This document shows, one piece after another, positions 36,745 to 50,784 of a DNA stretch of 64,000 bases (its first letter is position 1; each line of letters begins with the position of its first letter). Source of the stretch: Pimelobacter simplex (lineage in GTDB: Bacteria; Actinomycetota; Actinomycetes; Propionibacteriales; Nocardioidaceae); contig NZ_CP096276.1 of NCBI RefSeq assembly GCF_024662235.1, positions 5,456,001 through 5,520,000 on the forward strand, written 5' to 3'. The notes under the pieces are model-generated. The model made no database searches, was not told the DNA's origin, and saw only the letters and a program-made list of their open reading frames with translations. Position numbers and translations under genes: made by a program.

Positions 36745-36870
36745 GGCTCGCCGCCCCGAGCCAACTGATCTTGTCGACCCCTCTGTCAATTGCGCGGAAC
36801 CTCGGACAGCGACGCTCGTTGCAGGGTTAGCCTCCGCGAGCAGTCGTCTGCTCCACCTCGGACGGCGCAG

Positions 36871-39800
36871 ATGACGATGGGGACTCGCATGATGCTGACG
36901 TACGCCCGCGGACCGGTGGTCCGCCTGCTCACCGCGGTGCTGGCCACCGCCCTGACCCTGGCCGGGCTGGTGGCGCTGTCCACCGCCACCGCGCCTGCGG
37001 CGCACGCCGCGGCGGGCACCGTGCGGGGCACGGTGACGGCCGCGGACACGGGGGCGCCGCTGGTCGGCATGACCGTGGTGGCGTACTGCCAGGAGAGCGG
37101 GGCGTGGGCCCGGTGCGAGGAGACGACCAGCGGGGCGGGTGGGGCGTACACGCTCGCGCTGCCGGCGGGGACGTTCCACATCGGGGCGAGCAGCGGTGAC
37201 AACCAGTTCGCCGAGACCTTCTTCGGAGGTACGACGCGCGCGAACGCCGCGGACGTCGTCCCGCCGGCGAGCGACATCGACCTGGCGATGGCGCGCAACG
37301 CGTCGGTCAAGGGCCGGGTCGGCCAGGGTCTGCTCAACGCGGCGGTCCCCAATGTCGACGTGTGCCTCTACGGCCAGGTGACCACGGGCGGCACGACCTC
37401 GTGGAAGTGCCTCACCGAGGCCAAGACGACGACGCGCTCCGACGGCACCTACACGGTGTGGGCCAAGCCGGGCACCTACCGGGTCGGCTTCTCGGTCGCG
37501 GACAACCGGATGCGCGAGGTGTTCTACCCCAACGCGGCGACGGTCGCGGCGGCCACCAACCTGGCGCTCACCAGCGCCGGGCGCACCGGCATCAACGTCA
37601 AGATGGTCGGCAACGGCAAGGTCACCGGCTCGGTCCGGGTCCAGGGCACCAACGCCGCCGTTCCGGGCGCGCAGGTCAAGGCCTTCGAGCTCGTCGGCTC
37701 GGCCTGGCAGCCGACGCACACGGCGACCGCGGACGCGGCCGGCGGCTACGAGCTCTACCTCGCCAACGGCACCTACCGGTTCTCCTTCGACGGCGGCGCG
37801 ACGTACCAGGCGGAGTTCTGGAACGACAAGGCCACCGTCGAGACCGCGACCGACGTGGTCGTCGCCAACGGCGCCACCGTCACCGGCATCAGCCCGCTGC
37901 TCGCGCGCAACGCCCGGATCACCGGCAAGGTGACCGCCGAGGACGGCGGCGCGCCGATCGCCGGCGCCCAGGTCGCGGCGCTGCGTCAGGTGACCAAGCA
38001 GGTCGGCGGCCAGACCCGCACCGTGTGGGACGCCGTGGCGTGGGCGACCGCGGACGGCGCCGGCGCCTACCAGCTGGCCGTCACGCCGGGCACCTACCGG
38101 GTCTCGTTCGACGACCCGTGCGACCCGACGGCCTGTGCCGACGTCTACCAGGCCGAGTACTGGAACGACGCCGCCGACGTCGAGGACGCCGACAACGTCG
38201 TGGTCGCCGGCTCGGGCACCTACCCCGAGCGCAACGCGGCCCTGGCCGCCAACGGCCACATCACGGGCACCGTGACCGCGGCGGACGGCGGCGCGCCGCT
38301 GCGCGGCATCGCCGTCACCGCACTCGACCAGAAGACCTACCAGGCCGGCGGCCAGACCCGCACCGAGTGGGTCGTGGTCGGCCGCGCGACGACCGACGTC
38401 GACGGCGAGTACACGCTGCCGGCCGCGCCGGGCACCCACAAGATCGAGTTCGCGGAGACCTGCTCGGGCGCGGGCTGCCGCTACCTCGGCGAGTTCTACG
38501 ACGACGCGGCGTCCGCCGAGACCGGCGCCGGTGTCACGATCACCGCTCCCGGGGCCACCACCTCGGGCATCGACGCCGAGCTGGCCGCGGGCGCGCTGGT
38601 CTCCGGCAAGCTGACCGGTGCCGCCGACGCCGCGGTCGCCGGCGCCAAGGTCACCGTCTACACCCAGCAGGCCGGAGCCTGGAAGCCGCTCACCAGCGTC
38701 ACGTCCGGCGCCGACGGCCGGTACGCCGTCCTGGTGGCCGGCGGCAACGTCCGCGTGGGCTTCTCCGACGCCGACGCCCGCTTCACCGAGGAGTTCTTCG
38801 ACGACAGCCGCACCCTGGCCGGTGCCGACACGATCGCCGTCACCGGCGCCGACGTGCCGAACATCAACGCCACGCTCGGGCTGCAGGTCGTCAACACCGC
38901 GGTGCCGACGATCCCGGACGCCGACCCGCAGGTCGGCGAGACGATCACCGCCGGCAACGGCACCTGGGCGGTCACGCCCGACAGCTACACCTACAAGTGG
39001 TTCCAGTCCGGCACGGTCGCCCCGATCGGCACCGAGCAGGCCCTGGTCGTCCCCGCGGGCGCCCTGGGCAAGACGCTGACCGTCGAGGTGACGGCCAAGA
39101 AGGCCGCGCACGCCGACGGCGTCGCGACCTCCGCGCCGTCCGCCGCGGTCGCGCTCGGCACGCTGACCAGCTCGGCCAAGCCGACGGTCTCAGGTGCGGT
39201 GACGGTCGGCAGCACGGTCCAGGCCCTCGAGGGCACCTGGTCCGCGACGCCCGACAGCTACACCTACAAGTGGTTCCAGTCCGGTACGGCAACCCCGATC
39301 GGCACCGGCAAGGAGCTCGTGGTCCCGGTCGGCGCGGTCGGCAAGACCCTCAGCGTCGAGGTCACTGCGAAGCGGGCCGGCCACACCGACGGTGTCGCCA
39401 CCTCGGACCCGACGGCGGCGGTCGCCCCCGGCGGCCTGGTCAACAGCGCGAAGCCCACGATCAGCGGCGACCTCAAGGTCGGCAGCACGGTCACGGCAGG
39501 TGACGGCACCTGGGCCCCGGCTCCGGACGGCTTCACCTACCGCTGGTTCCAGGCCGGCAGCACCGACGCGATCGGCACCGGCAAGGACCTCGTGATCCCG
39601 GTCGGCGCGGTCGGCAAGACGCTCACCGTCGAGGTCACCGCGGCCAAGGCCGGCTACGGCAACAGCACGGCGGTCTCGGACCCGTCGGCGGCCGTCGGGT
39701 TCGGCACGCTGACCAGCACGGCCAAGCCGACCATCACCGGCGCGGTCAAGGTCGGTGGCACGGTCGCCGCGGTCGAGGGCACCTGGTCCTCGACCCCCGG

Positions 39801-41346
39801 CTCGTACACCTACCGCTGGTTCCAGGAGGGCTCGACCGACCCGATCGGCACGACCAAGACCCTCGTGGTCCCGGCCGGCGCCTTCGGCAAGAAGCTGACC
39901 GTCGAGGTCACGGCGCGCAAGCTCGGCTACACCGCCGGCGTGGCGTCGTCCGACCCGTCGGCGGCCGTCGCCAAGGGCGACCTGGCCAACACCGCGGCGC
40001 CGACGATCACCGGCACCGCCCAGGTGGGCAAGACCGTCACGGCGGAGCCCGGCACCTGGACGCCGGCTGCCGAGGGGCACACCTACCGCTGGTTCCAGGA
40101 CGGCAGCACCGACCCGATCGGCACCGGCAAGGACCTCGTCGTCCCGGCCGGCGCCGCGGGCAAGAAGGTGCGGGTCGAGGTCACCGCGACCGCCGCCGGG
40201 TACGCCGACGGCGTGGCCTCCTCGGCCGCCACCGACGACGTCGCCCTGGGCGAGCTCGCCAGCTCGGCCGAGCCGACGATCACCGGCACCGTCCAGGTGG
40301 GCAAGACCGTCACCGCGGAGCCCGGCACCTGGACGCCGGCCGCCGAGGGTCACACCTACCGCTGGTTCCGCTCCGGCGCCACCGACCCGATCGGCACCGG
40401 CAAGGACCTCGTCGTCCCGGCCGCCGCCGCGGGCGAGACGCTGACGGTCGAGGTCACCGCCTCCGCCGCCGGGTACGCCGACAGCGCCGCCGTCTCCGAG
40501 CCGACCGCCGCGGTCGCCAAGGGCCAGCTCGCCAACACCGCGAAGCCGACCGTCACCGGCACGGTGGCGGTGGGCGGCACGGTCCAGCCGAACGACGGCA
40601 CCTGGTCGCAGACGCCCGACAGCTACACCTACAAGTGGTTCCTGTCCGGCGCGAGCGCCCCGATCAGCACCGACCGCCAGCTCGTCATCCCGAGCGGCGC
40701 GGCGGGCAAGACCCTGCGCGTCGAGGTGACCGCGACCAAGGCCGGCTACACCGACGCCTCGGCGAGCTCGGACCCGCTCTCGGTGGCGGTGCCCGCGGCC
40801 CAGCCGCCGGTCAACACGGTCAAGCCGACCATCACCGGCAAGGTCCAGGTCGGCAAGACGCTCACCGTGAACCCGGGCACCTGGTCGCCGACCCCGACCA
40901 ACCACGGGTACCAGTGGTTCGCCAACGGCGTCCGGCTCCAGGACGTCACCGGCAACCGGCTCACCCTGACCCCGGCCCTGGCCGGCAAGGTGATCCAGGT
41001 CCTGGTCGGCGCGAGCGTCCCCGGCGCCATCGGCTGGGAGTGGAGCGCGGCTACCAAGCCGGTCGCCCTCGGCACCCTGACGGTCACCGGTCGCCCGACC
41101 CTGACCGGCACCGCCAAGGTCGGCAAGAAGCTCAAGGTCGTCGTCCCCCGGACGACGGCGCCGGCTGGCGCGACCGTCACGATCCAGTGGCTGGTGGGCG
41201 GCAAGGCGATCCCGAAGGCCACCGGCAAGGCGCTCAAGCTCGGCAGCGTGCTCTACCGCGGCAAGAAGGTGCAGGCCCGGGTGACCTACACGCTCAAGGG
41301 CTACGCGCCGGTGGTGCGGACCACCGCCAAGGTCAAGGTGAAGTAG
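36871..41346 (+). CDS. Giant secreted repeat protein: six carboxypeptidase-regulatory-like and nine Ig-like repeats
   Basis: About 1,491 aa from ATG 36871 (ATG 36886/36889, nearer a GGGGA site, is also possible). The signal peptide (V-V-R-L-L-T-A-V-L-A core) ends near A-H-A-A-A. Residues about 50-670 hold six copies of a ~100-residue CarboxypepD_reg/SdrD-B-like beta-sandwich, with recurring G-x-V-T-A-x-D-G-G-A-P and G-T-Y-R-V-S-F plus a E-F-W-N-D-K-like turn. Residues about 673-1491 hold nine copies of a ~90-residue Ig-like repeat (N-T-x-K-P-T-I-T-G, G-T-W, Y-x-Y-K-W-F, V-E-V-T-A). No LPxTG, membrane anchor or catalytic domain is visible, so attachment is unexplained. It is likely a stalk, adhesin or matrix protein. 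Confidence 0.85.
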   Translation: MTMGTRMMLTYARGPVVRLLTAVLATALTLAGLVALSTATAPAAHAAAGTVRGTVTAADTGAPLVGMTVVAYCQESGAWARCEETTSGAGGAYTLALPAGTFHIGASSGDNQFAETFFGGTTRANAADVVPPASDIDLAMARNASVKGRVGQGLLNAAVPNVDVCLYGQVTTGGTTSWKCLTEAKTTTRSDGTYTVWAKPGTYRVGFSVADNRMREVFYPNAATVAAATNLALTSAGRTGINVKMVGNGKVTGSVRVQGTNAAVPGAQVKAFELVGSAWQPTHTATADAAGGYELYLANGTYRFSFDGGATYQAEFWNDKATVETATDVVVANGATVTGISPLLARNARITGKVTAEDGGAPIAGAQVAALRQVTKQVGGQTRTVWDAVAWATADGAGAYQLAVTPGTYRVSFDDPCDPTACADVYQAEYWNDAADVEDADNVVVAGSGTYPERNAALAANGHITGTVTAADGGAPLRGIAVTALDQKTYQAGGQTRTEWVVVGRATTDVDGEYTLPAAPGTHKIEFAETCSGAGCRYLGEFYDDAASAETGAGVTITAPGATTSGIDAELAAGALVSGKLTGAADAAVAGAKVTVYTQQAGAWKPLTSVTSGADGRYAVLVAGGNVRVGFSDADARFTEEFFDDSRTLAGADTIAVTGADVPNINATLGLQVVNTAVPTIPDADPQVGETITAGNGTWAVTPDSYTYKWFQSGTVAPIGTEQALVVPAGALGKTLTVEVTAKKAAHADGVATSAPSAAVALGTLTSSAKPTVSGAVTVGSTVQALEGTWSATPDSYTYKWFQSGTATPIGTGKELVVPVGAVGKTLSVEVTAKRAGHTDGVATSDPTAAVAPGGLVNSAKPTISGDLKVGSTVTAGDGTWAPAPDGFTYRWFQAGSTDAIGTGKDLVIPVGAVGKTLTVEVTAAKAGYGNSTAVSDPSAAVGFGTLTSTAKPTITGAVKVGGTVAAVEGTWSSTPGSYTYRWFQEGSTDPIGTTKTLVVPAGAFGKKLTVEVTARKLGYTAGVASSDPSAAVAKGDLANTAAPTITGTAQVGKTVTAEPGTWTPAAEGHTYRWFQDGSTDPIGTGKDLVVPAGAAGKKVRVEVTATAAGYADGVASSAATDDVALGELASSAEPTITGTVQVGKTVTAEPGTWTPAAEGHTYRWFRSGATDPIGTGKDLVVPAAAAGETLTVEVTASAAGYADSAAVSEPTAAVAKGQLANTAKPTVTGTVAVGGTVQPNDGTWSQTPDSYTYKWFLSGASAPISTDRQLVIPSGAAGKTLRVEVTATKAGYTDASASSDPLSVAVPAAQPPVNTVKPTITGKVQVGKTLTVNPGTWSPTPTNHGYQWFANGVRLQDVTGNRLTLTPALAGKVIQVLVGASVPGAIGWEWSAATKPVALGTLTVTGRPTLTGTAKVGKKLKVVVPRTTAPAGATVTIQWLVGGKAIPKATGKALKLGSVLYRGKKVQARVTYTLKGYAPVVRTTAKVKVK
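38887..41343 (+). repeat. Nine tandem ~270-bp repeats encoding Ig-like domains
   Basis: In-frame repeats of about 90 codons. Neighbouring copies share long identical DNA stretches, for instance around CTACACCTACAAGTGGTTCC (38986, 39256, 40626), with CACACCTACCGCTGGTTCC at 40079 and 40349. The last two copies have diverged. Such repeats can recombine, so copy number may vary between strains or be miscounted in short-read assemblies. Confidence 0.85.
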
Positions 41347-44680: not shown

Positions 44681-44781
44681 GACCTTCCCGATCGATTCTT
44701 CACCTTGCGACGAGAACGGCCGTCCGAGGGGAGAGGCCGCCTCACCGCACTCTCATGCCCCCCGGTGGAAGGTCTCCTGCC

Positions 44782-47700
44782 ATGAAGATGTCCGTGCCCG
44801 AACGCGGGACGGCGAGGCGCGCAGCGGCGCGCTCGCGCGTCCCGCTCGTCGTGACGATGGTGCTCGCCGTCGTCACCGCAGGCGTGGGGCTGCTGTGGCC
44901 CTCCGCCGCGTCGGCCGCGGGGTCCGGCGTGCTCGACATCGTGATCACGCCGGTCGACCTGAGCAACGGCGCGACCATCACCGACATCGAGGACGGGACG
45001 CACGACAACAAGGTCACCTACCGGGTGCAGTACTCCTGCACCACCGCCGCGTGCGACGGCACCCAGGTGCAGTTCTCCACGCCGCCCACCGACCCCCACG
45101 GGCTGCTGCCGGCCGGCCAGTTCATCCTGATGTACGGCTCGTGGGTCCAGCCCGGCGCGGGCGGCACCATCGGCGGCACCGACGCGACCGGCAAGGTCGT
45201 CGACCTCGGCAACCTCGCCGCCGGTACGTCGGGCACCTTCTCGGTGACCTACGGCTACCAGGCCTCGCGCAACCGCGAGATCCCGAACGGCTCCTTCTAC
45301 CCCGAGGGCACCTCGGTGCCGATGTCCGCGACGATCAGCTCCGACTCCGCGACCGGCCCGAAGACCTCGAACAGCGCCGTCACCTGGCACATCGGCACCC
45401 CGACGGCGGTGACGTCCGGCCTCGGTGTCTCGAACCCGACCTTCGACACCGACGTCCAGGAGTCGTACCGGATCGCCGTCAACCCCGGCAACATGCGCAC
45501 CAACCCGGGCTCCAACGTCGCGGGTGACGCGTCGTTGGTCGCCACGGGCAACTACAAGATCGTCTACACCGTCCCGGCCGAGGCCGTGATCGACGAGGCC
45601 AGCGACGACGGGGTCATCGACAACGCCAACCACACGGTCACCTGGACCAAGGGCACCGCGGCGACCCCGTCGTACGGCGCTCGCGGTGGCTGGGGTCTCG
45701 CGGCCCTGAGCGGCTTCAACAGCGGCGGCGCCGCGACCAACAACGGCCTGGTCGGCCCGGCCGACGCGGCCACCTGGGGCCCGCGGACCGTCAAGGTGAC
45801 CTTCCCGGGCAGCAACTTCCCCGAGGCGGACCCGACCGGCTGCAACTTCGTCAAGGACGTGACGTCGAACCTCGCGGTGACCGTCAACTACCTCGACAGC
45901 GCTCGCACGCAGCGGACGCTCAACCGCGACCTGACGACCAAGGTCGCCTGCACCAACCCCTTCGGCGGGATCCTGACCGCCAAGACCGTCTCGAACGGCG
46001 TCACCACCAACGAGGGTGACGGCGACCTGGGCGGCGGCATCCTCGCCGTCAACACCCCGGCTCCGGGTGAGGCCGACACGGGCAACCGCGAGTGGCGGGT
46101 CTCGGCCGGCAACGTCGGCAATGTCGACGCCACGGCCGTGATCGACGAGCCGAACCTCGACCAGGACCACATCAAGGTGCAGCGGATCATCGCCTACCAG
46201 TTCTCGGGCGCGCCCGCGGGCTGGGAGGCGAGCGTCGACTGGGTCGACAACACCGGAGCGACCGGCACCGCCCAGCTGGGCAACGCCGCCTTCGTCGACG
46301 CGCAGCCGGGCCGTTGGTTCGTCAGCGCCAAGACCACCGCGCCGCTCCCGGCCGGGCGGATCCTGCCGAGCGACAACACCGCGACCACGATGCAGATGGG
46401 CTACCGCTTCAAGATCGACGACGGGGCCATCCCGCTGACCGGCCAGGAGCGCACCAACACCGCCGACGTCTCCATGTCCTACCCGGCCGACGCCGACGGC
46501 GACGGCACCCCGGACGACTACACCAACCTGCAGGGTCAGCCCCTGCCGACGCGGAAGGTCGAGCAGTCGCGCTCGCGCACGGTCCGCTACACCCAGCCGC
46601 TGGCCACGCTGACCCCGGGCTTCGTGGGCACCCCCGTCGTGGCCGGCGGTGGCAACCCGATGCCGGGCACCGAGGTGACCTTCTCGATGCGCGCGCTGAC
46701 CTCCAACGTCTGGCCCGGTACGTCGGTCCAGCCGCAGCTGGTCTTCGTCGCGCCGGTCGGGTGGGAGGTCGTCCCGGGCTCGGCGTCGTTCACCGCGAAC
46801 GGCACGGGCGCGACGGCGACGGCGCCCGCCGGCGTCACGTACGACTACCGCACCGTCACCATCGGTGGCGAGCAGCGCTCGGTCGCCGTGGCGACGTACC
46901 CGAGCCAGGTCGCACTGAGCGCGGCGACCAACGACTACTGGCCGACGCTCTCGGTCAAGGCCAAGCCGACCCTCGCGGCGGTGCCGGGCGTGCAGCCGAT
47001 CGGTGCGGTCTGGGCCGGTGACCAGAGCGGCACCTGGCGCGACGCGACCGGCCAGGGCTTCGTGTCCGGGCCGAACCAGTTCCGGGTCACCGCGCTGGCG
47101 GCCGACTCCGGAGACGTCGACGCCGACGGGGACACGACCGAGGAGTACGCGGTCCAGAACAACACCTTCAACCTCGCTGTCGGCGCCTCCGACGGCCTGA
47201 GCGTCCTCAAGGAGCTGTGCATCCCCGACGAGAGCGCGGCCGACGGTTGCGCGTGGGTCGCCGACCCGTCGCAGGTCCACGAGATCCCGGTCGCGGAGTC
47301 GACCGTGAAGTACCGGATCACGCTGCGCAACGCGGGCAACACGACCCTCCACGACGTCGTCGCGTACGACGTCCTGCCGTACGTCGGCGACACCGGCCTG
47401 CTGGCCAACCCGCCGGCCCGCGGCTCGCAGTTCAACCTGCTCGTCGACTCGATCGCCTCGAGCTCGCCGAACCTCCAGCTCGCCTACTCGGCCTCGACCA
47501 ACCCGGCGCGCCCGCAGGTCAACCCGGGTGCGGCCGGCACGGTCGACGACTGGGGCGCCGGTGCCGCCGGCAAGAAGGCGATCCGGATGACCGTCGACGG
47601 CGACCTCGCCGCCGGCGCGACCGCCGAGGTGGTCCTCGTGGCCGCCGTGGCGCCGGGCTCGCCGACCAACAAGACCGCCTGCAACACGGTCGCCGCGGAC

Positions 47701-50700
47701 TCGAACGAGACGCTGCCGGCCGAGCCGCTCGCGGTGTGCGTGATCCGCGCGGCGGGGGAGCCGGGCCTCACGCTCGCCAAGACCGCGGCGCTGACCACCG
47801 ACCACGGCACGCCGGGGGTGGCCGACAAGGGGGACGTGATCACGTACACCTTCACCGCCGACAACAGCGGCAACGTCCCGCTGTCCGACGTGTCGATCGA
47901 CGACACCAAGGCGGGGCTCTCGGCGATCACGCCGGCGAGCGTGGCCACGCTGGCTCCGGGCGACGACACCACGTTCACCGCGACGTACACGGTGACGCAG
48001 GCGGACGTCGACAACGGCGCGGCGATCACCAACACCGCGACCGCCGAGGCGACGGACCCGGACGACGGTGCGGTCGTCTCGCCGCCCGACTCCGCGTCGA
48101 CCAACGTCGTGACGGCGGCGCCGAGCCTGCTGACGGACAAGGAGGCCGAGCTCGACGACACGAACGGCAACGGCAAGGCCGACAAGGGCGAGAAGATCGC
48201 CTACTCGTTCACGGTGCGCAACAACGGCAACGTGACGGTGAGCGGTGTTGCGGTCGACGACCCGATGGTCTCGGGGATCAGCCCGGCGTCGGCGACGATC
48301 GCGCCGGGTGGTCAGCAGGTGTTCACCGCGGGTGACTACACGGTGACCCAGGCGGACGTCGACAGTGGTGGTCCGATCGTGAACCGGGCGTCCGCGTCCG
48401 GTACGGCGCCCGGTGGTGGCGAGGTCACCTCGCCGGACGACACCACGTCGACCGACACAGTGGCCCGTGCGCCGGGTCTGTCGGTGGACAAGTCCGCGGC
48501 GCTGACGACCGATCACGGCGCGGCCGGCAAGGCGGACAAGGACGACGTCATCACCTACACGTTCGTGGTGGAGAACACCGGGAACGTGACGATGACGAAC
48601 GTCGCGATCGCCGATGCCCTGCCGGGTCTCTCGCCGACGACGCCGCTGCAGGTCGCCACGCTGGCGCCGGGTGCGGACACGACGTTCACCGCGACGTACA
48701 CGGTGACCCAGGCCGACGTGGACGCTGGTACGCCGGTGCACAACTCGGCCGTCGCCCAGGGCAAGGCGCCCGACGGCACGACGTCGAGCTCGACGCCGGA
48801 CACGACCGACACCGACGTGGTGGCGGCCGACCCGGACCTGTCGATCGACAAGACCGCCGTGCTGGACGACACGAACGGCAACGGTGCCGCGGACAAGGAC
48901 GAGGAGATCGCCTACACGTTCACGGTGCACAACGCCGGCAATGTCACCCTCAGCGGCGTGAAGGTCACCGACCTGCTGCCCGGCCTGAGCGCCGTCAGCC
49001 CGGTGAGCGTCGCGACGCTGGCCCCGGGTGCGGACGCGGTGTTCACCGCGTCGTACACGACGACCCAGGGCGACGTGGACCGCGGCGGCTCGATCGACAA
49101 CTCCGCCACCGCGTCCGCGAAGGCGCCGAACGACGCCCCGGTGACCTCGGTCCCCGACACGACCAGCACCAACCTGGTGCCCGGTGCGCCGGGGATCGTG
49201 CTGGACAAGAAGTCGGTGCTCGACGACACCAACGGCAACGGCAAGGCCGACGTGGGTGAGGAGATCGCCTACACGTTCGAGGTGGAGAACACCGGCAACG
49301 TGACCGCGACGGACGTCGAGGTCACCGACCCCGAGGTCACCGGCATCACGCCGGCCAGCGCGACCATCGCCCCGGACGACACCGTGGTGTTCACCGCCGA
49401 TCCCTACGTGGTGACGCAGGGTGACGTCGACGACGGCGTCGTGCACAACGTCGCGGCCGCCTCGGCGAAGGTGCCGGGTGGCGCGACCGTGACCAGCGAG
49501 GACGTCGACGACGTCGACACCGTCGAGGCCCACCCGGACCTGGGTGTCGTGAAGTCCGCGGAGATCACGGTGGACGCGGCCACGGCCGGCAAGGCCGACG
49601 TGGACGATGTCGTCACCTACACCTTCACGGTGCGCAACGACGGCGGTGCCACGGCGTTCGACGTCTCGGTCGCGGACGCCCTGCCGGGTCTGTCGGCGGT
49701 CTCGCCGGCCTCGGTGGCGACGCTCGCCCCGGGCGCGGAGACCGAGTTCACCGCGACGTACACGGTGAGGCGGGCGGACGTGGTGCGTGGCGGGATCGAG
49801 AACACCGCGTCGGTGACCTACCGCGGCCCCGTCCGCGGCGGCCAGCAGCCGGCTCCGGTCACGGACGACTCCAACACCGTCACCACCCCGACCGGCAGCA
49901 TCGGTGCGCCGACGCTGACCACGAAGGCGTCGTCGGCCAAGGTCGCGATGAGTGTCGGCAAGGGTGGTGTCCCGAACGGGGTGCGGTTGCACGACGTGGT
50001 GACGATCAGCGGTTTCGTGACCGGTGGTGACGCGTCGGGTACGGCCACGCTGTACGGGCCGGTGGCGAAGCGTTCGGCGGGGATGTGCACGCCGGGGCGC
50101 AAGGTCGGTTCGGTGGCGTTCGTGCCGCGTAACGGCACGGTGCGTACGCCGGCGATCACGGTCCGCAAGCCGGGCTACTACACCTGGGTGGTCGCTACCA
50201 GTGAGGACCGGCGCAACGACGCTGCTTCGCATGCCTGTGGGTTGGCGGCGGAGACGACGCTGGTGCACCGTGCGGAGGTCGGCAAGGTCAAGATCGAGAC
50301 CGGGTTCACCGGTCCGGTGGTCGCGGGCCGCCAGGTGCGTCCGGCGAGTGTGTCGATCCCGGCGATCGGGATGAAGGCTCCGTTGGACGTGGTGGGTGTG
50401 CGCAAGGGGTCAATGGTGATCCCGGAGAACGTGCGCCGTGGTGGCTGGCTGCAGCAGTCGGCTGCTCCTGGTGAGGTGGTCGGTGCGACCGTCATCGCCG
50501 GTCACGTCTCTGATCGTCATGACCGGCCGGGTGCGTTCGGGAAGCTGAACAAGGCCAAGGTGGGTCAGGTCGTCACCGTGCGGGGCACGGACGGCAAGGT
50601 GCAGAAGTACCGGATCACCAAGGTCTACACGCAGAAGCGGACCAAGGGCTTCACCGGTGCTCCGGTGTCGACCACCGGTGCCCACCAGCTCACGTTGGTG

Positions 50701-50784
50701 ACCTGCACGGGCAAGGTCCGCTACAGCAGCGGCCGGTTCCACTACACGAAGAACCAGGTCGTGATCGCGACCCCGATCGGCTGA
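44782..50784 (+). CDS. Giant exported repeat protein with C-terminal sortase domain
   Basis: A 2,000-aa protein (ATG 44755 is an alternative). A signal peptide with basic n-region (R-R-A-A-A-R-S-R) and a core ending S-A-A-S-A-A is present. Residues about 35-985 are beta-rich, unassigned, with a Ca-type loop D-A-D-G-D-G-T-P-D-D. Residues about 992-1700 hold six DUF11/DUF7507-like repeats, some with D-D-T-N-G-N-G-K-A-D. After a ~125-residue Cys-containing module, residues about 1856-2000 match a class F-type sortase: V-S-I-P-A-I-G-M, G-G-W, His1908 in A-G-H-V, Cys1975 in L-V-T-C-T-G, Arg1980 or Arg1985, and the final V-V-I-A-T-P. All three catalytic residue types are present. No C-terminal anchor. 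Confidence 0.87.
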   Translation: MKMSVPERGTARRAAARSRVPLVVTMVLAVVTAGVGLLWPSAASAAGSGVLDIVITPVDLSNGATITDIEDGTHDNKVTYRVQYSCTTAACDGTQVQFSTPPTDPHGLLPAGQFILMYGSWVQPGAGGTIGGTDATGKVVDLGNLAAGTSGTFSVTYGYQASRNREIPNGSFYPEGTSVPMSATISSDSATGPKTSNSAVTWHIGTPTAVTSGLGVSNPTFDTDVQESYRIAVNPGNMRTNPGSNVAGDASLVATGNYKIVYTVPAEAVIDEASDDGVIDNANHTVTWTKGTAATPSYGARGGWGLAALSGFNSGGAATNNGLVGPADAATWGPRTVKVTFPGSNFPEADPTGCNFVKDVTSNLAVTVNYLDSARTQRTLNRDLTTKVACTNPFGGILTAKTVSNGVTTNEGDGDLGGGILAVNTPAPGEADTGNREWRVSAGNVGNVDATAVIDEPNLDQDHIKVQRIIAYQFSGAPAGWEASVDWVDNTGATGTAQLGNAAFVDAQPGRWFVSAKTTAPLPAGRILPSDNTATTMQMGYRFKIDDGAIPLTGQERTNTADVSMSYPADADGDGTPDDYTNLQGQPLPTRKVEQSRSRTVRYTQPLATLTPGFVGTPVVAGGGNPMPGTEVTFSMRALTSNVWPGTSVQPQLVFVAPVGWEVVPGSASFTANGTGATATAPAGVTYDYRTVTIGGEQRSVAVATYPSQVALSAATNDYWPTLSVKAKPTLAAVPGVQPIGAVWAGDQSGTWRDATGQGFVSGPNQFRVTALAADSGDVDADGDTTEEYAVQNNTFNLAVGASDGLSVLKELCIPDESAADGCAWVADPSQVHEIPVAESTVKYRITLRNAGNTTLHDVVAYDVLPYVGDTGLLANPPARGSQFNLLVDSIASSSPNLQLAYSASTNPARPQVNPGAAGTVDDWGAGAAGKKAIRMTVDGDLAAGATAEVVLVAAVAPGSPTNKTACNTVAADSNETLPAEPLAVCVIRAAGEPGLTLAKTAALTTDHGTPGVADKGDVITYTFTADNSGNVPLSDVSIDDTKAGLSAITPASVATLAPGDDTTFTATYTVTQADVDNGAAITNTATAEATDPDDGAVVSPPDSASTNVVTAAPSLLTDKEAELDDTNGNGKADKGEKIAYSFTVRNNGNVTVSGVAVDDPMVSGISPASATIAPGGQQVFTAGDYTVTQADVDSGGPIVNRASASGTAPGGGEVTSPDDTTSTDTVARAPGLSVDKSAALTTDHGAAGKADKDDVITYTFVVENTGNVTMTNVAIADALPGLSPTTPLQVATLAPGADTTFTATYTVTQADVDAGTPVHNSAVAQGKAPDGTTSSSTPDTTDTDVVAADPDLSIDKTAVLDDTNGNGAADKDEEIAYTFTVHNAGNVTLSGVKVTDLLPGLSAVSPVSVATLAPGADAVFTASYTTTQGDVDRGGSIDNSATASAKAPNDAPVTSVPDTTSTNLVPGAPGIVLDKKSVLDDTNGNGKADVGEEIAYTFEVENTGNVTATDVEVTDPEVTGITPASATIAPDDTVVFTADPYVVTQGDVDDGVVHNVAAASAKVPGGATVTSEDVDDVDTVEAHPDLGVVKSAEITVDAATAGKADVDDVVTYTFTVRNDGGATAFDVSVADALPGLSAVSPASVATLAPGAETEFTATYTVRRADVVRGGIENTASVTYRGPVRGGQQPAPVTDDSNTVTTPTGSIGAPTLTTKASSAKVAMSVGKGGVPNGVRLHDVVTISGFVTGGDASGTATLYGPVAKRSAGMCTPGRKVGSVAFVPRNGTVRTPAITVRKPGYYTWVVATSEDRRNDAASHACGLAAETTLVHRAEVGKVKIETGFTGPVVAGRQVRPASVSIPAIGMKAPLDVVGVRKGSMVIPENVRRGGWLQQSAAPGEVVGATVIAGHVSDRHDRPGAFGKLNKAKVGQVVTVRGTDGKVQKYRITKVYTQKRTKGFTGAPVSTTGAHQLTLVTCTGKVRYSSGRFHYTKNQVVIATPIG
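47755..49890 (+). repeat. Six tandem ~355-bp repeats encoding DUF11-type domains
   Basis: Each unit of about 118 codons carries A-Y-T-F-T-V-x-N-x-G-N-V-T, A-T-L-A-P-G and Y-T-V-T-Q-A-D-V-D. Two sub-types occur: one opening with T-T-D-H-G (units 1 and 3, with a relative in unit 6) and one with D-D-T-N-G-N-G (units 2, 4, 5). This suggests duplication of a two-domain cassette. Confidence 0.8.

Follow-up and report, generated by a model that had tools for sequence, protein, structure and literature searches.

The stretch of DNA analysed here (the window) comprises 64,000 nucleotides of Pimelobacter simplex (contig NZ_CP096276.1, positions 5,456,001 to 5,520,000 of the forward strand) and contains, at 44782-50784 on the + strand, the gene for a 2000-residue secreted protein that we call P0001. 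The protein joins a long repeat stalk, an immunoglobulin-type (Ig) domain, a short linker and a C-terminal sortase domain in one chain, and a conserved TG-type motif lies between the Ig-bearing part and the sortase. On balance, we favour the reading that the sortase cuts the chain shortly before its own domain and links the adhesin to which it is fused to the wall, in place of the usual sorting tail. Self-attachment was one of several options raised in the initial annotation, which had been made from the letters alone; the conserved motif before the sortase, together with relatives in which the same parts are encoded by split genes, points to self-sorting, while the cleavage itself we infer. 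That annotation made no reference to the Ig domain, the motif in the linker, the paralogues or the split genes. The features on which the argument depends are the following.

49903..50268, +: ester-bond-type Ig domain, residues 1708-1829, with conserved Cys1769 and Cys1819
50287..50313, +: candidate sorting motif VKIETGFTG, residues 1836-1844 (from the invariance of G1841, the spacing, comparison with internal Ig copies, and the predicted local distance difference test score, pLDDT, of the linker)
50301/50302, +: proposed cleavage between T1840 and G1841
50338..50781, +: C-terminal sortase domain, residues 1853-2000 (Pfam, NCBIfam, AlphaFold2 and PDB comparisons)
50503..50505, +: catalytic His1908, His in 63/64 relatives
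50638..50640, +: Arg1953, Arg in 64/64 fused relatives; in 36 stand-alone sortases Lys in 27, Arg in 8 and Ala in 1
50704..50706, +: catalytic Cys1975 (codon TGC, in the sequence TLVTC), Cys in 63/64 relatives

A conserved motif in the linker

The C-termini of fused proteins were collected as 115 rows, which reduced to 94 distinct sequences and to 64 at <80% identity. The residue aligned with G1841 was Gly in 94/94 distinct and 64/64 nonredundant sequences. Among the 64, column 1840 held T in 42, G in 14, A in 5 and S in 3; column 1838 held V in 34, I in 27 and F in 3; and column 1842 held F in 37, Y in 14, G in 5, P in 4, A in 2, V in 1 and S in 1. Apart from G1841 and its T/G/A/S neighbour (64/64), columns 1832-1856 reached at most 44/64. 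In the subset at <50% identity the Gly was kept in 17/17 and TG in 13/17. The Gly lay 12-15 residues after the Ig domain (12 in 54/64) and 13-112 residues before the sortase; as the former distance is nearly fixed and the latter variable, the motif travels with the substrate part.

A pattern of the form [VIF]x[TASG]G[FY], defined post hoc after inspection of the data, was present in 73 of 86 distinct tails that precede a sortase and in 0 of 28 that follow internal Ig copies. It fits 51 of the 64 nonredundant rows; the other 13 keep [TSAG]G, as in VDTGG, IDTGA or PEIPSGP. In the AlphaFold2 model the linker had a pLDDT of 63-68, and the other ten-residue blocks were all at 90 or above.

Split-gene loci

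At eight loci in eight genomes (L131-L138), one gene encodes an adhesin with the Ig domain and the gene next to it a sortase from the same group. IP[ST]GP closes every split adhesin except that of L138 (7/8), and seven of the eight lack a hydrophobic tail; at L133 the motif is followed by a hydrophobic stretch and then a basic end. A hydrophobic segment precedes the domain in all eight split sortases, three of which have a lipobox-like Cys: those of L136, L137 and L138 resemble lipoproteins, with lipobox-like LVTAC, TTAC and LAGC, respectively. On the fused side, the linkers of L124, L125 and L141 carry PE[IV]P[ST]GP. L139 and L140 are longer stretches of the first two loci, and the L139 linker, VPEIPSGP, is the terminal motif of the split adhesins L132-L137. 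Set against those six pairs, L139 matched the adhesins at 48-56% over 533-576 amino acids and the sortases at 48-55% over 174-216 amino acids (for L137, 54% over 558 and, in the separate sortase, 53% over 177). Because split adhesins end in IP[ST]GP and their close fused relatives carry the same motif in the linker, fusion would seem to unite a substrate with its dedicated enzyme.

One split locus, L131, is a 61,745-base plasmid of the same genome as P0001 (contig C3; G000:C3:12000-26000). Compared with the plasmid record NZ_CP097986.1 from P. simplex N39, it was identical over 3332/3332 bases (100%); the annotation of that record gives the pair as a hypothetical protein and a class F sortase, 11 bases apart. 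The plasmid also carries an open reading frame (ORF), L131:2182-4767 (-), whose Ig copies belong to the same family and which has no sortase.

A quick tree of 82 sortase domains clustered 47 fused, 7 split and 1 stand-alone sequence (SH-like approximate likelihood ratio test 90) and set 27 stand-alone sequences apart. Fused and split rows interleave in this tree, so fusion or fission may have occurred more than once; the fused label takes four changes, of which strongly supported branches force one. The split motif was also sought in 294 family genomes with a degenerate DNA pattern, which proved too unspecific to use: it matched in 20/294, four of them at known split loci, and the pattern run backwards as a control matched in several genomes as well.

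The sortase domain

The Pfam family Sortase (PF04203) matched residues 1858-1998 of P0001 with 60.7 bits (E 1.5e-16). An AlphaFold2 model of residues 1708-2000 had a mean pLDDT of 92.9 and a predicted template modelling score of 0.88, and when it was compared with the PDB in two ways, sortases occupied 50/50 rows each time among the matches listed. The structure prediction that had been proposed as a check on the domain therefore returned a sortase fold. A single-sequence PDB search gave zero matches at E 0.01; a five-row profile matched class A and C sortases.

The initial annotation had called the domain class F-like. Its fold and the PF04203 match bear out a sortase, and class F was the best-scoring named class, but the NCBIfam class F model (NF033748) matched residues 1851-1997 with 78.6 bits, under its cut-off of 166, and membership of class F proper is not supported. 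The nine fused or split members tried scored 45.6-78.6 bits against that cut-off, and three stand-alone sortases scored 175 (L044), 150.6 (L036) and 68.3 bits (L061); given the score of L061, a low class F score is not peculiar to the fused group.

His1908 and Cys1975 are at the positions first assigned to them. Both are kept in 93/94 distinct fused sequences and in 16/17 of those below 50% identity. The two arginines originally proposed to complete the site, Arg1980 and Arg1985, had to be discarded, being poorly conserved in the 64 relatives (column 1980: T in 35, V in 12, R in 7; column 1985: R in 37, G in 14, H in 10). A profile alignment placed the Arg of Staphylococcus aureus SrtA at column 1989, which is T1989 in P0001 and T in 45, R in 13 and A in 5 of the family; going by the ends of the structural alignments and residue numbering, the canonical position would be N1991. 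More speculatively, the invariant Arg1953 could be a replacement for the catalytic Arg, and it, the basic residue at 1978 or another residue might fill that role in P0001.

Fused relatives and their distribution

Searching the genome of the window with PF04203 gave 11 matches, five of which are long secreted proteins with a C-terminal sortase: P0001, L012 (stalk of NHL and Big_9), L013 (DUF7507), L014 (thioester and TQ ester domains) and L017. His and Cys are present in all five, which suggests that each copy needs its own enzyme, since service in trans would have let the others decay. A protein search with residues 1700-2000, which took in lengths of 0.55-1.75 times the query only, found 56 proteins including P0001 at E <=1e-5 (1190-2476 amino acids). 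The organism names given were Pimelobacter or Nocardioides, and the N-terminal domains vary while the C-terminus is common to all. Other proteins with a stalk followed by a sortase, of the sort for which a search had been recommended at the outset, do exist, and the paralogue L013 shares the DUF7507 type of stalk. Stalks of four kinds were seen in fused forms (DUF7507, NHL/Big_9, SdrD_B and thioester). Judged by their sequences, the fused proteins are a family in which several stalk types are set on one C-terminal module.

By our own classification, 17 fused forms, one of them in Janibacter, were among the 80 loci kept, from named genomes, out of 103 relatives. Some match was found in at least 150/198 family genomes, and the Ig domain and the sortase shared one frame in at least 25, all classed as fused. 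When 394 genomes of the class were searched, matches running from profile column 20 or earlier to column 285 or later fell only in the same family among the matches listed (G000, G006, G029, G108 and G063); a few others start at columns 62-127. We give about even chances to the broader proposal that each adhesin has its own single-use transpeptidase, which severs itself as it fastens the adhesin to the wall, and that this cassette, born of the fusion of a substrate with its dedicated class F-like sortase, was passed on to unrelated stalks, chiefly in the Nocardioidaceae.

The absence of a C-terminal membrane anchor, noted early, held: the last 330 residues of P0001 contain no hydrophobic segment, nor do those of any of the 56 full-length proteins (0/56). 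In a Pfam scan, P0001 had no PF00746 match at E 1.

Several related proteins merit description in their own right. L014:6455-9034 (+) has an N-terminal thioester domain (PF08341) besides its TQ ester domain and is possibly attached covalently at both ends. L016:7086-8116 (+) and L015 (G000:C1:427490-427798 and 1405601-1405912), also of this genome, are sortase-like, with LTLVTA in place of the Cys-bearing sequence and, by eye, hydrophobic segments at both ends; they are likely pseudo-sortases with another role. In L013 (G000:C1:4490211-4494230, -) the sortase is 88% identical to that of P0001 and the frame is lost in the last residues, through natural decay or a sequence error; some of its relatives are intact. 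Lastly, in the fused relative P0052 (= L121) Gln and Lys replace the catalytic His and Cys and the TTG linker is retained, so that it is a natural dead-enzyme version.

Proposed mechanism and alternatives

The order of events in self-sorting would be as follows. The stalk would be secreted N-terminus first, followed by the Ig domain, the flexible linker and, last, the sortase. Cys1975 would then attack the T1840-G1841 bond, either in cis or between neighbouring copies, to form a thioacyl intermediate between Cys1975 and the adhesin. This intermediate would be resolved by an amine, either from the wall precursor or from a cross-bridge and probably that of a Gly on LL-diaminopimelate, leaving the adhesin covalently bound to the wall and releasing the sortase domain. 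The sortase would stand in for the membrane helix and basic tail of an LPXTG signal and would be used a single time. Each of these assignments (the motif as cleavage site, action in cis, transfer to the wall, the nucleophile and release of the sortase) is inferred.

Several observations count against self-sorting. The motif is not LPXTG: V, I or F takes the place of the Pro, and the Thr is replaced by Gly, Ala or Ser in 22/64. The pattern [VIF]x[TASG]G[FY] occurs in 0/9 tails of Ig-ending ORFs that have no sortase; seven of these nine carry IP[ST]GP, and L138 and the second ORF of L131 have neither motif. Since the seeding profile took in the linker, the collection may be mildly biased towards motif-bearing members. 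P0052 keeps the motif without His and Cys, and in L013 the reading frame breaks down towards the end of the sortase. All sortases carry a His-Cys-Arg triad according to PMC13257024, so that a canonical Arg missing from its usual place is a real point against ordinary activity. Finally, unlike the eight split sortases, fused forms have no hydrophobic anchor directly before the sortase, which makes it harder to see how the enzyme would be kept close to lipid II.

Some of these points would be met if the TG motif were cut by another, stand-alone sortase and the fused domain were a handle or wall-binder, catalytically dead or dying. Stand-alone sortases do occur in the genome, as do four matches of the LPXTG type that score above the Pfam cut-off, one of the 94 distinct relatives keeps TTG without His and Cys, and the canonical Arg is missing. 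The retention of His and Cys in nearly every relative, even among the most divergent, and the split adhesins that adjoin a sortase of the same group nevertheless make this quite improbable. Rather more credit, though still little, is due to the idea that the fused sortase acts in trans as a polymerase, joining the TG end to an amine of another copy or of other surface proteins in a covalent fibre, like the pili made by class C sortases. The fused stalks are of different kinds and have only the C-terminus in common, and in the PDB structure comparison the scores of class A and E sortases differed from those of class C by no more than about 2 Z units. An N-terminal Gly as nucleophile for head-to-tail polymers was considered and rejected, as the mature N-termini are inconsistently Gly (by eye, uncounted).

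We think it very unlikely that the linker motif serves to cap the Ig domain structurally, with the sortase displayed on its stalk and acting on unrelated substrates. The fixed distance between motif and Ig domain would suit a cap; the internal Ig copies, however, are never followed by the motif, which in the model falls in a low-confidence stretch, and a similar motif stands near the end of 7/8 split adhesins. Coupling of P0001 to the giant protein encoded at 36871, another early suggestion, was rejected: at least two unrelated genes lie between them (a LuxR-type regulator and a major facilitator superfamily transporter), the giant had no sortase or anchor family match in a family profile scan, and the paralogues of P0001 are elsewhere in the genome. 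The giant itself (window 36790-41346, +) is a secreted protein, roughly 1,500 residues long and lacking a recognised anchor, in which five carboxypeptidase-regulatory-like stretches are followed by many KPTITGTVKVG...YKWF repeats.

Gene, export and stalk

The remaining features of P0001 are as follows.

44782..44919, +: signal peptide, residues 1-46 (hydrophobic segment 20-38, then SAASAA; cleavage site by eye)
44920..47766, +: N-terminal region, residues 47-995, with no strong Pfam match
47767..49902, +: six DUF11/DUF7507 stalk repeats, residues 996-1707 (Pfam and NCBIfam matches, repeat alignment)

The frame is open from the ATG at 44782 to the stop at 50784. A GGAAGG-like ribosome site lies upstream of this ATG (by eye), and a second in-frame ATG of the gene is at 44755. 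The fraction of guanine and cytosine (GC) at third codon positions was 0.947 for the whole gene, 0.847 for the sortase part and 0.977-0.978 for two neighbouring genes. As first described, the sortase is in frame with the repeat protein; the frame is single and the codon-position GC continues to the sortase end, and neither hints at a frameshift or at a second gene. A base error creating a separate sortase gene was rejected on the basis of this signal and by relatives of similar length and make-up. Residues 20-38, with a hydrophobicity of 2.44, form the sole hydrophobic segment of P0001 and mark it as an exported protein, in line with the original description.

The six DUF11-type domains originally counted correspond to six DUF11/DUF7507 repeats over residues 996-1707, which Pfam gives as seven stretches. 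A Lys, an Asp and an Asn align in each. DUF11/DUF7507 families make intramolecular isopeptide bonds according to PMC12617251, in agreement with which these residues would be an isopeptide triad. The Ig domain that follows has the fold of an ester-bond (TQ) domain, a call that relies on a second structural aligner and not on Foldseek, which with the Ig domain alone placed glycoside hydrolases at the top and ester-bond domains from rank 5. A Pfam scan of P0001 gave no PF18202 (TQ) match.

Significance and comparison with known systems

We found no description of a sortase fused to an adhesin in the titles, abstract openings and passages covered in a search of the open-access literature; the early remark that no system with this order had been described stands within that scope. 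The NCBI automatic names of some members already read 'sortase domain-bontaining protein', so the domain itself has been seen before. Class F sortases were first studied in Cutibacterium acnes and their role in Actinoplanes is given as unknown; PMC13251363 assigns them no physiological role, reports that deleting four of the class F genes changed no phenotype, and mentions as candidate substrates two neighbouring proteins that lack a pentapeptide. A survey of fibrillar adhesins (PMC8286594) could assign no known anchor to 1,785 proteins, 'nearly half'. That survey and two later ones sought motifs in the last 50 residues only, the first two adding anchor-domain profiles. The motif of P0001 lies about 160 residues from the end, and scans of that kind would miss it.

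Sortases are known as shared enzymes that serve many substrates; P0001 differs in having substrate, candidate cut site and enzyme on a single chain. The split pairs name likely class F-like substrates and a testable motif. If self-sorting is correct, the enzyme is itself the sorting signal, and class F-like sortases gain a concrete candidate substrate and motif. P0001 is a variant of the sortase system, and might represent a new way of anchoring should self-cleavage be demonstrated; protein engineering, too, could make use of a self-ligating module.

Among known systems, the LPXTG fibrillar adhesins (PF00746) are alike in being secreted stalk proteins with a TG-type motif, and the split adhesin of L133 matches them in its order of motif, hydrophobic stretch and basic end. 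P0001 departs from them in having a sortase where the hydrophobic stretch and basic tail would be, and in its non-LPXTG motif. Class F sortases (NF033748) share with the P0001 domain the His and TLVTC motifs and an actinobacterial host; they are stand-alone enzymes with their own membrane anchor, whereas the P0001 domain is C-terminal to an adhesin and has no such anchor. Class C pilus sortases, stand-alone membrane enzymes that work on other proteins, are about 20% identical to it. In comparison with ester-bond (TQ/VaFE) domains such as that of Clostridium perfringens CPE0147, the Ig domain of P0001 has a conserved Cys pair and no TQ Pfam match. A parallel in logic to the self-sorting proposed for P0001 is Hedgehog-type autoprocessing, in which a C-terminal domain cleaves itself off and transfers the N-terminal part to an anchor; the fold and chemistry are unrelated.

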